Shown piece after piece: positions 6,163 through 43,090 of a DNA stretch of 52,172 nt (its first letter is position 1; each line of letters opens with the position of its first letter). The stretch comes from Patescibacteria group bacterium. Lineage in GTDB: Bacteria; Patescibacteriota; Minisyncoccia; UBA6257; 02-FULL-45-10c. The stretch is taken from NCBI GenBank assembly GCA_018896875.1, contig JAHILT010000038.1, positions 1-52,172 of the forward strand, written 5' to 3'. Both the position numbers and the translations under genes were made by a program. The notes under the pieces were generated by a model that was given only the letters and a program-made list of their open reading frames with translations, ran no database searches and was not told the origin of the DNA.

Positions 6163-6300
6163 ATGAATCCCACACATAACAAAAATCAATTTTTGATTTT
6201 GTGTAGGAATATCATATAATTTAAGATTATTTATAAATATTAATAAAACAACAAAGCCAAAGAAAACTTTTGCTTTCTAGTTTTTGTTATGTGTGGGATG
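6163..6300 (+). repeat. Start-codon-closing inverted repeat, copy A
   Basis: ATCCCACACATAACAAAAA at 6167-6185 is perfectly complementary to 6281-6299, giving a 19-bp helix around ~95 nt. The right arm ends on the ATG (6298-6300) of the next gene. A TATAAT at 6149-6154 would start the transcript at about 6161-6163, just before the left arm. A mini-ORF of 18 codons begins there at 6163 (MNPTHN...). A small inner hairpin precedes the right arm. Related copies are at 23341 and 36585. Confidence 0.85.
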
Positions 6301-6717
6301 AAAATAAGAATTAAAAAAATAAATCCCACACATAATAATTTATGTGGTGGGATAAATACTTCTTATAAAAATTTTATGCGGATTTGTGGTTATATAGAAA
6401 TATTTAATCCTCATAAAAACAACGACGTAAGTTATGCGCGCTCATTTGATTCTGGACATTTTTATCCTCGCTTTCATATTTATATTCAAGACCTGCCAAC
6501 CCAAGAAACCGAAATAAACTTACACTTAGATATGAAAAAGGCAAGCTATGAAGGGGTATCTGCTCATAGTGGAGAATACGATGGAGAATTAGTTTCACGA
6601 GAAGCCAAAAGAATAAAAAATATCTCTGACAAATTCAGTTTAGAAAAAACTGTCCAACATCAACCTTTAGGATTTAAAAAGAAAACATCTTTTTGGAGAA
6701 AAATATTTGGTTTTTAA
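6298..6717 (+). CDS. Conserved hypothetical protein
   Basis: A 139-residue soluble protein without a recognised domain. The second half contains RFHIYIQDLP, INLHLDMKKASYEG and AHSGEYDGELV...EAKRI. This pattern is familiar to me only as a hypothetical protein of Patescibacteria. I start at the ATG at 6298, the end of the upstream inverted repeat, rather than at 6289 inside the arm. Codons ~10-18 contain a second mini-hairpin (6323-6353) with the same CCCACACATAA word, so the peptide there reads NPTHNN. A bidirectional terminator follows. Confidence 0.65.
   Translation: MKIRIKKINPTHNNLCGGINTSYKNFMRICGYIEIFNPHKNNDVSYARSFDSGHFYPRFHIYIQDLPTQETEINLHLDMKKASYEGVSAHSGEYDGELVSREAKRIKNISDKFSLEKTVQHQPLGFKKKTSFWRKIFGF
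6323..6353 (+). repeat. Small hairpin version of the CCCACACATAA repeat inside a coding region
   Basis: ATCCCACACATAA and TTATGTGGTGGGAT pair around TAAT with one bulged G. It lies 22 nt inside the 6298 gene and repeats the arm sequence of copy A. Confidence 0.75.
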
Positions 6718-8403: not shown

Positions 8404-8690
8404 TGCCGCGGGGGTGAATCGAACACCCAACGCCAGCCTCTTCCGAAGCTATTTGGACTATCTCATCTTCCTTAATTCAGGAAGCCGGGCGCTAATGCAA
8501 GATTATTGTTGGGACTCACCTGCTAGTCTCTACACCTTCTCCGCCACTTAAACCCTGCGGAGCTCGGCTCGGGATTGTCAAATACAAGATATAGTTGATT
8601 TTCCCCGAATTCACCCGGTTATTCAATCTGTATTACTACAGAAGGCCCCAAAGAATTTAGGGCTGCGCTCTACCATTGAGCTACCGCGGC
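8404..8690 (-). tRNA. tRNA-Phe (GAA) interrupted by a group I intron
   Basis: The exons are 8659-8690 (5', 32 nt) and 8404-8443 (3', 40 nt). Joined, they give acceptor GCCGCGG/CCGCGGC, D arm GCTC...GAGC, anticodon stem CAGCC/GGCTG and loop CT-GAA-GA, anticodon GAA. The T arm is GGGTG-TTCGATT-CACCC and the discriminator is A. The break falls after U33, immediately before the anticodon. Exon lengths fit a standard 72-nt tRNA, and the reading depends on the intron boundaries inferred from P1 and the terminal G. Confidence 0.9.
8444..8658 (-). other. Group I self-splicing intron (215 nt) in tRNA-Phe
   Basis: Conserved core on the minus strand. In P1 the exon end GCCCU pairs with the internal guide GGGGC, giving the U-G pair at the 5' splice site. 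P4 is formed by UUCGGGGAAA with AAUCCCGAG. The R element contains GAGACUAG (8523-8530) and the S element GAUAGUCC (8455-8462), pairing as P7. The intron ends in G before exon GAAGA. The small size and lack of an ORF fit bacterial tRNA introns (IC3-like; the subtype is inferred). Insertion between positions 33 and 34 of tRNA-Phe differs from the well-known tRNA-Leu(UAA) site. Confidence 0.9.
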
Positions 8691-23340: not shown

Positions 23341-23474
23341 CATCCCCCACATAACAAAGACTGATAAAATATAAATTTAGATATTGCAAAAAACAATGAA
23401 TAAGTCGCAAAAAAATAATTTAACAATATTGATCACGAAAGCTTAGCTTTTGGGTCTTTGTTATGTGGGGGATG
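23341..23474 (+). repeat. Start-codon-closing inverted repeat, copy B
   Basis: CATCCCCCACATAACAAAGAC (first 20 nt quoted as CATCCCCCACATAACAAAGA) pairs perfectly with 23454-23474, whose last three bases are the ATG of the next gene. Compared with copy A, the stem position CCCAC/GTGGG has become CCCCC/GGGGG, a compensatory change. A hairpin AAAGCT-T-AGCTTT precedes the right arm. No ATG stands before the left arm in this copy. Confidence 0.85.
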
Positions 23475-23834
23475 AAATTTTTATCTAGAATAATATTCTT
23501 TTTTTTGGTTAATTTAATTGGATTAATAGTGGCTTCGTATTTTATAGAAGGATTTTCTGTAGTTCCAAATTTTGAGAACTTATTAATTCTTACCTGTATT
23601 TTTACAGTAATTAATATCTTGATTAAACCTATATTAAAGTTTGTTTTCTCTCCTTTTATCATTTTGACGATGGGCTTGTTTAGCTTAGTAATCAATGCTA
23701 CAATGTTAAAACTTCTTGATATTTGGTCTATAAGTATTACTATTTCTGGAATTCAAGCTTTAATTTACGCAACCTTAATTATCACAATAATAAACTTATC
23801 ATTAACTTTTGTAGCTAAATCTTCATTTAAATAA
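23472..23834 (+). CDS. Phage holin 4 superfamily / YvlD-like membrane protein
   Basis: A 120-residue protein with four hydrophobic segments. The family hallmarks are the N-terminal (I/L)..FL.NLIGL.VASYFI.GF, then NILIKPILKF...P..ILT.GLFSLVINA. Members are small membrane proteins of unclear role, despite the holin name. I start at the ATG at 23472, at the edge of the inverted repeat, not at 23463 within it. The stop abuts the secG start with no gap, so the two are translationally coupled. Confidence 0.8.
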   Translation: MKFLSRIIFFFLVNLIGLIVASYFIEGFSVVPNFENLLILTCIFTVINILIKPILKFVFSPFIILTMGLFSLVINATMLKLLDIWSISITISGIQALIYATLIITIINLSLTFVAKSSFK

Positions 23835-36580: not shown

Positions 36581-36712
36581 ATGAATCCCGCACATAACGA
36601 AGACTATTCTTAGTGGGATAATAGCTTAGAAAAAATAATAAGTCGTATAAATTAACATAAAATAACAAAGTCAGAGAAAATCTTATTTCCAGTCTTTGTT
36701 ATGTGTGGGATG
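36581..36712 (+). repeat. Start-codon-closing inverted repeat, copy C
   Basis: ATCCCGCACATAACGAAGAC at 36585 onwards pairs with 36691-36711 (two G-U wobbles), ending on the clpP2 ATG (36710-36712). A second copy of the left-arm word, ATAACAAAGTC at about 36662, can pair locally with the same right arm, giving two exclusive foldings. An 11-codon mini-ORF (MNPAHNEDYS, stop) starts at 36581, parallel to copy A. Confidence 0.85.
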
Positions 36713-37312
36713 AACGAAAAAAACGAATATTTAATTCCAACAGTTATAGAAAAAAGTTCTGCAGGAGAACGAGCTTATGATATTTATTCTCGTCTTTTAA
36801 AAGAAAGGATAATATTTTTAGCTGGACCAATAAATGACGCTATTGCTAATACGGTTGTGGCTCAATTACTTTTTTTAGAACATGAAAATCCTAAAAAAGA
36901 TATTAAGCTTTACATTAATTCTCCTGGTGGATCTATCACTGCAGGACTAGCTATTTACGATACAATGCAATATGTTAAATGTGATGTTTCTACTATTTGT
37001 ATCGGCATAGCAGCTTCTATGGGAGCAGTTCTTTTAGCTGCTGGATCTAAGGGGAAAAGATTTGCGCTCCCTAATTCTGAAGTATTGATTCACCAAGTAA
37101 TGGTAGAAGGGATTGGAGGACAGGCCACGGAAATTGAAATAAGCGCCAAACATATTTTAAAAATGAGAGAAAGACTTAATCAATTATTAGTCAAACATAC
37201 AAACCGTCCTTTATTAAAGATACAAAGAGACACAGAAAGAGATTACTGGCTTACTGCTCAAGAAGCTAAAGAATATAATTTAGTAGATAAGATAATTAAA
37301 ACAAAAAATTAG
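36710..37312 (+). CDS. clpP: ATP-dependent Clp protease proteolytic subunit, paralogue 2
   Basis: A 200-residue ClpP with fully canonical motifs: S103 in [15 protein letters not shown]128 in VLIHQ and D174 in [31 protein letters not shown] is intact. It is closer to the textbook sequence than paralogue 1. The start is placed at the ATG closing the inverted repeat, not at 36701 inside the arm, since the family usually begins with (Y)LIPTVIE close to the N-terminus. It follows tig on the same strand. No clpX is in the window. Confidence 0.95.
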
Positions 37313-42724: not shown

Positions 42725-42806
42725 GCTCCCGTGGCGGAACTGGCATACGCGCATGGCTTAGGACCATGTCCTGCAAAGGGTAGAGGTTCAAATCCTCTCG
42801 GGAGCA
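42725..42806 (+). tRNA. tRNA-Leu (TAG)
   Basis: A class II tRNA: acceptor GCTCCCG/CGGGAGC, anticodon stem CATGG/CCATG enclosing CTTAGGA (anticodon TAG), a variable arm (TCCTGCAAAGGG region) and T arm AGAGG-TTCAAAT-CCTCT, discriminator A. The ORF drawn across it (42731) is an artefact. Confidence 0.95.
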
Positions 42807-42808
42807 CT

Positions 42809-43090
42809 ATGTATACAATTTATATTCTACAAAGTCTAAAAAACCTAAGAACATACGCTGGATACACAGAAAATTTAAAATTAAGATTACAACAGCATAA
42901 TTTAGGAAAAGTTAATACCACAAAAAATAGAAGACCTTTGATAATTATCTTTACGGAAAACACATAGTCATTAGCAAAAGCAAAGAAACGCGAACTTTAT
43001 TGGAAATCGGGCAGTGGCAGAAGAAAACTAAAATCTTATTTTGAATTCGGGTTCCCGCCCAGTGCAACTGGGCGAGGCTCGCCCAAATAA
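42809..43090 (+). pseudogene. GIY-YIG nuclease family gene, interrupted by an in-frame TAG
   Basis: Reading from the ATG at 42809 gives MYTIYILQSLKNLRTYAGYTENLKLRLQQHN, the start of a small UvrC-like GIY-YIG domain (the motif appears as IYI...TYAGYT). After FTENT a TAG stop occurs (42965-42967). The same frame then continues with SLAKAKKRELYWKSGSGRRKL, the normal C-terminal part of the family. One nonsense change thus splits the gene. The tail runs into a GC-rich repeat (CGCCCAGTGCAACTGGGCG and TTTGGGCGG). It starts 2 nt after tRNA-Leu. Either a decayed gene or a sequencing or assembly error. Confidence 0.8.

Follow-up and report, generated by a model that had tools for sequence, protein, structure and literature searches.

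Start-codon inverted-repeat elements in Patescibacteria: candidate minimal mobile elements carrying a lone GIY-YIG nuclease

Insertion sequences and other DNA transposons, together with MITEs, have terminal inverted repeats (TIRs), a short target-site duplication (TSD), and autonomous and non-autonomous copies with common ends. The catalytic domain PF01541 is present in GIY-YIG homing endonucleases (phage and intron) and in UPF0213/YhbQ proteins; for GIY-YIG domains, nuclease activity is known but end joining is not. Rickettsia palindromic elements and REP are small palindromes that may lie in frame within coding genes. In CPR bacteria, insertions in rRNA genes have been reported to contain GIY-YIG ORFs, to lack an intron match, and seemingly not to spread by homing (PMC11270868), and Patescibacteria have been predicted as donors of GIY-YIG genes (PMC12455944). 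Both reports fit a mobile nuclease gene.

The elements described here have the TIRs, short TSD, and two kinds of copies of insertion sequences and MITEs, and differed from them in the lack of a recognised transposase, a sole ORF for an 85-aa GIY-YIG protein, a total length of 280-330 bp, and a strong preference for start codons. They share PF01541 with the GIY-YIG homing endonucleases; unlike these, they have inverted repeats and 4-bp duplications, are not introns, and occupy many unrelated sites. The CPR insertions lie in rRNA genes, and inverted repeats, TSD, and start codons are not mentioned in the accessible part of that report (PMC11270868). The micro-palindromes found here (26-29 bp), in contrast to the Rickettsia elements, share their ends with larger, nuclease-bearing copies. 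No GIY-YIG element with inverted repeats, TSD, or start-codon targeting was found in searches of the open-access PMC literature.

The window (the whole stretch analysed, 52,172 nucleotides of a Patescibacteria contig) was originally predicted to contain three long-range helices, each running from the presumed 5' end of an mRNA to a start codon. The arms were present at the predicted places, each 19 bp long and ending on the start ATG. The first belongs to a 131-bp non-autonomous element at 6168..6298 (+ strand; arms 6168-6186/6280-6298), the final A of which is the A of the host ATG (6298-6300; gene end 6717, + strand). It is flanked by TGAA at 6164..6167 and 6299..6302 (both +), and the left copy, preceded by A6163, gives ATGAA, the original start codon, now displaced. 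The second element, of 130 bp (23343..23472, +; arms 23343-23361/23454-23472), lies at the start of a YvlD/PF04020-like gene, where TGAA at 23473..23476 (+) belongs to the rebuilt start codon (ATG 23472-23474); its left flank is TTCA, not ATGA, and this copy is without a matching target duplication. The third, of 125 bp (36586..36710, +; arms 36586-36604/36692-36710), lies at the start codon of clpP between TGAA copies at 36582..36585 and 36711..36714 (both +). ATG 36710-36712 begins clpP, whose product matched CLP_protease in a profile search (E=4.3e-82). The ends of the three elements are the 19-bp TCCCNCACATAAC...GTTATGTGNGGGA, the arms each finish on GGG-ATG, and the stems folded better than shuffled sequences (z -6.1 to -7.9). 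We consider it likely that these helices are the ends of a minimal mobile element, the autonomous form of which (~280-330 bp) would consist of TIRs and one GIY-YIG ORF and insert at start codons.

The number of copies, predicted as three, was found to be far higher genome-wide, and includes an unnoticed 29-bp micro-palindrome in the window itself (6324..6352) with the same ends as the element at 6168 and the TSD TAAA (6320-6323/6353-6356), which is in frame within the host ORF and adds 33 nt. Copies were located by sequence pattern and retrieved as separate stretches. In the small 790-kb genome, a draft assembly of 89 contigs, the core GTTATGTGNGGGAT was counted 32 times and its reversed control 0 times, excluding chance; for TTATGTGNGGGA, the counts were 52 and, reversed, 1. 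Many copies away from start codons had been named as an observation against the original prediction, and such copies were found only among the 26-29-bp micro-palindromes. Besides 6324-6352, micro-palindromes with these ends and 4-bp duplications were seen in frame in coding sequences at L076 ~919, L077 ~930, and L078 ~1082; they add 30 or 33 nt (peptide, for example, INPTHNLCGGI).

Pairing was analysed in 47 copies from seven genomes, which were chosen for ending on an ORF. Positions 1-19 of the arms were paired nearly without exception, with an abrupt stop at position 20, corresponding to the TIRs (19 bp) by which DNA transposons are recognised. The compensatory stem differences of the original prediction were borne out: the fifth base pair was A/T in 30 copies, C/G in 7, G/C in 6, T/A in 2, and mispaired in 2 (45/47 matched), and 0/5000 shuffles reached this match. 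Exactly this helix of 19 bp was also returned by RNAalifold; columns 5, 17, and 19 showed double changes. The right arm was conserved more strongly than the left, and an alternative local hairpin was also predicted near the right arm. Two copies in L089 differed at the covarying pair (A/T versus C/G); speculatively, arm covariation among close copies would be in keeping with an intermediate of folded single-stranded DNA or RNA. Many copies have inside them a recurring GTCG-(C/T)ATAAT-like motif, which could be a promoter. Tandem or nested copies were observed in L034, L038, and L039, with junctions of GGGA-ACTTG-TCCC or similar.

In the direction of the gene, the usual layout was A-TGAA-TCCCNCACATAAC ... 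GTTATGTGNGGGA-TGAA, and the host ATG consisted of the last A of the element and the TG of the right duplication. The TSD was nearly always TGAA or TGGA. Identical 4-bp flanks were present in 36/47 copies of this first family; an exact duplication was missing in about one quarter of them and in half of the copies of the second family described below. A right TGGA was usually paired with a left TGGA (C75 of the window's genome, G002 C46, and G006 C11; exception, L065). Since the flank base varied in step on both sides, the 4-bp repeat is a target-site duplication. Counted without the ORF condition, each of the 22 resolved copies in the window's genome that reach 89 bp begins a gene, the start in the contig C61 copy being an ATG within the right arm. 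The same placement was found in 15/16 pairs in G002, 6/6 in G006, and 2/2 in G003. The window has 106 intergenic TGRA sites and 22 gene starts that read NTGRA; by chance, therefore, about one in six placements outside coding interiors would fall on a start. Host genes, essential ones among them, include clpP, gatB, ssb, trpS, rpoC, mreB, ychF, lepB, gap, tig, hrcA, and others (names other than clpP were assigned by inspecting the N-terminus), and the start codons of clpP, lepB, hrcA, and rplY were struck repeatedly. Other TSDs (TAAA, TTAA, TTTA, and TTGA) were found at other sites.

Orthologs in sister species showed the precise pre-insertion state at several genes. The clpP site is empty in G001 and G002, where TATAAT is followed after 7 nt by ATGAACGAA; it is filled in G003 (TATG, CCAGGCAGT...ACTGACCTGG, TATG) and, by an element with TCCCGTTAGAGG ends, in G006, so that three species have three different elements at one start codon. 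At ychF, the window's genome and G002 carry the element and G004 has an empty site with a homologous flank; the tig site is occupied in G002 and empty in G001 and G003. At rplY, empty in G001/G003, a 26-bp palindrome in G002 splits the TAAA that is single in both. The element at rpoC is absent in G001-G003, where rpoB and rpoC almost abut. Target duplications and empty sites, the mark of a DNA transposon, were both found. The ortholog comparisons show that elements arrived independently at the same start codons, and speak strongly against an origin as a conserved regulatory leader. The -10-like boxes, which had been taken to place the transcript start just before the left arm, are plausibly the host genes' own promoters because the empty clpP sites have TATAAT 7 nt before the ATG.

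Copies of 295-301 bp contain one ORF of ~85 codons between the same ends (C2, C18, C45, and C61 of the window's genome, G002 C54, and G015 C55). The ORF of the C2 copy matched PF01541 (GIY-YIG; E=6.6e-16). The nuclease ORF takes up 258 of 295 bp; its nearest solved sequences are SLX1 and UPF0213 BH0048, and the GIY-YIG signature (Y, Y-x-G, and E) was present as Y5, Y16, G18, and E62, invariant in seven aligned nucleases. No recognised transposase (DDE, HUH, tyrosine, or serine) was found between the ends, the only ORF of note being GIY-YIG, and the viral contigs searched contained no nuclease relatives. The short copies of 130 bp are non-autonomous: the ends are kept and the nuclease is absent. 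They share only the outer 13 bp with the nuclease copies of their own genome (AAAGAC versus TTACAC inside), where no exact nuclease partner of the window's short copies was found.

A second non-autonomous family, with TCCCGTTAGAG ends, is abundant in G006, G012, and G029. Among the long copies fetched, 25/31 finish on the ATG of an ORF of at least 60 aa, versus 1/10 of the short copies; the host genes include ribosomal-protein genes, typA, prfA, pheS, gyrA, ksgA, and groES. In G006, a nuclease copy with TCCCGTTAGAG ends (L209) occurs alongside short copies, the combination of short non-coding copies and an autonomous partner with shared ends that characterises MITEs; in the window's genome, this sharing extends to the outer 13 bp only. 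This family repeats the start-codon rule independently and ties short copies to a nuclease with the same ends.

A scan of the surroundings of 83 GIY-YIG ORFs, some drawn from relatives and others from the order or the genome collection, detected inverted ends with a duplication of at least 4 bp at 17/83 loci versus 0/386 random placements; under this strict rule, 66/83 of the sampled ORFs were without ends, some of them in tRNA genes. The end sequences were mutually unrelated (CCCCGTTAGAA, CCCAGCCCCTCCT, CCCCGCCCTTCC, CCCCGCACC, and others), and the recorded hosts include Staskawiczbacteria, Falkowbacteria, Moraniibacteriota, and Omnitrophota. In nine of the 17 the target was a start codon (e.g. 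L128, L131, L134, L140, L141, and L250), and in another six (L111, L129, L137, L138, L235, and L245) it was TTGA within a -35 box. The latter six have ends of the CCCC(G/T)CAC type and are inserted in TTGACA, with the right-side box intact. At L143, a GIY-YIG element is inserted 27 bp upstream of the hrcA start codon, next to the CIRCE operator. GIY-YIG genes were also seen in or beside tRNA genes (L108, L109, L115, L118, L145, L211, and L217), several with a piece of the tRNA duplicated on the far side, suggesting tRNA genes as a possible second target class. In the window, a GIY-YIG pseudogene with an internal TAG (42809-43036, +) lies directly behind tRNA-Leu (42725-42807), and a region that also holds tRNA genes contains a group I intron (8434-8668, - strand; Rfam RF00028, 69.6 bits).

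An open nuclease frame extends from the host's start codon in L128 (MNPAPPKFYYVYMLRS...), L131, L142, and L209. The nucleases of L095, L126, L134, and L136 start at an ATG of their own slightly further inside, preceded in L126, L134, and L136 by a short leader ORF that runs from the host start to, or just before, this ATG. At the right end, the rebuilt start overlaps or directly adjoins the stop codon of the nuclease (GTGA in L128 and L131, ATGA in L209, TAACGGGGTG in L134, and TAAGTTATGTGTGGGATG in L095), and the host gene begins with ATG where the element ends in A and with GTG where it ends in G. The ends, duplications, empty sites, start-codon placement, enclosed GIY-YIG ORF, and frames are legible in the sequences, and the steps of movement may be proposed as follows. 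Insertion would occur after the first base of the start codon (A^TGAA) with duplication of 4 bp; since the left duplication keeps ATGAA, the host promoter and start codon would now stand in front of the nuclease. Reading of the nuclease would begin at that codon, either directly in frame or by way of a short leader ORF, and at the right end the terminal base of the element (A or G) would complete the duplicated TG to a host ATG or GTG. This start, which often abuts or overlaps the nuclease stop, would permit translational coupling, and such a hand-over may be how host expression survives. We infer that the nuclease drives movement by cutting and joining; because GIY-YIG is not known as an end-joining enzyme, host repair or replication must help. 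The copies of ~130 bp would presumably be mobilised in trans.

The original prediction read the helix as a cis-regulatory RNA, in which base pairing between the mRNA's 5' end and the region of the start codon hides or presents that codon. The long helix, its position ending on the start codon, and the covariation of its arms were confirmed, and together with the stronger conservation of the right arm are in keeping with this reading. Its regulatory meaning was not sustained in view of the TSDs and empty sites: element-bearing genes differ among sister species, other species carry elements with unrelated ends at the same start codon, nuclease genes sit between the same ends, and Rfam contained no described RNA family matching the element in the window and six sampled loci. 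We regard this explanation as very unlikely. The sequences neither show nor require a regulatory role of the helix; it probably influences expression, and any effect on translation would be secondary. Transcription from the native promoter would place the helix in the mRNA, and transcription from inside the element would leave the left arm absent. A conserved regulon was rejected by the ortholog comparison (gene sets differ between species), as were an invertible promoter (copies are internally asymmetric, they always point the same way with respect to the gene, and empty sites occur) and translational bypass or continuous in-frame translation between the left and right ATGs (the element lengths are incompatible with a single frame).

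Regarding the enzyme, the copies might be ordinary MITEs of a conventional unseen transposase with the GIY-YIG gene as a passenger, as their MITE-like anatomy would allow, and a transposase copy could be missing from a draft in 89 contigs. An ORF that fills nearly the whole element and recurs between several unrelated ends across lineages is unlike a passenger, making this improbable. Homing, in which the nuclease cuts particular start codons and the element is copied by recombination as in intron homing endonucleases, is similarly doubtful. The GIY-YIG family and the repeated use of the clpP, lepB, hrcA, and rplY start codons agree with it; however, the sites share ~4 bp across dozens of unrelated genes, far below homing sites, and duplications with matching ends are hallmarks of transposition. 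Neither a self-splicing intron (no Rfam intron match in L032, L035, L065, and L090) nor one long homing site was found. A looser insertion, after which copies elsewhere were deleted and those at start codons survived because the host gene came to depend on a promoter or leader of the element, is compatible with the mobile-element explanation and has an appreciable, if lesser, chance of being correct. The duplications at other sites and the internal GTCG-(C/T)ATAAT-like motif point to it; on the other hand, copies with exact duplications, presumably young, are also at starts, and the need for a promoter is not obvious where the rpoB-rpoC junction is split. Target choice by the mobile element rather than survival is favoured because exact-duplication copies obey the start rule in unrelated families.

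On balance, these elements probably represent a GIY-YIG-only class in Patescibacteria and Omnitrophota that dwells at start codons, takes the start signal of the host gene, and returns translation through a codon completed by its own last base. If true, a lone GIY-YIG nuclease would be a new class of transposition enzyme, the start codon, rebuilt by the element, would be a new insertion niche, and a size of ~280-300 bp would be among the smallest for autonomous DNA mobile elements. This would also account for many small GIY-YIG genes with an unknown role in Patescibacteria genomes, and bears on the annotation of gene starts and on how 5' leaders of uncultured bacteria are interpreted.
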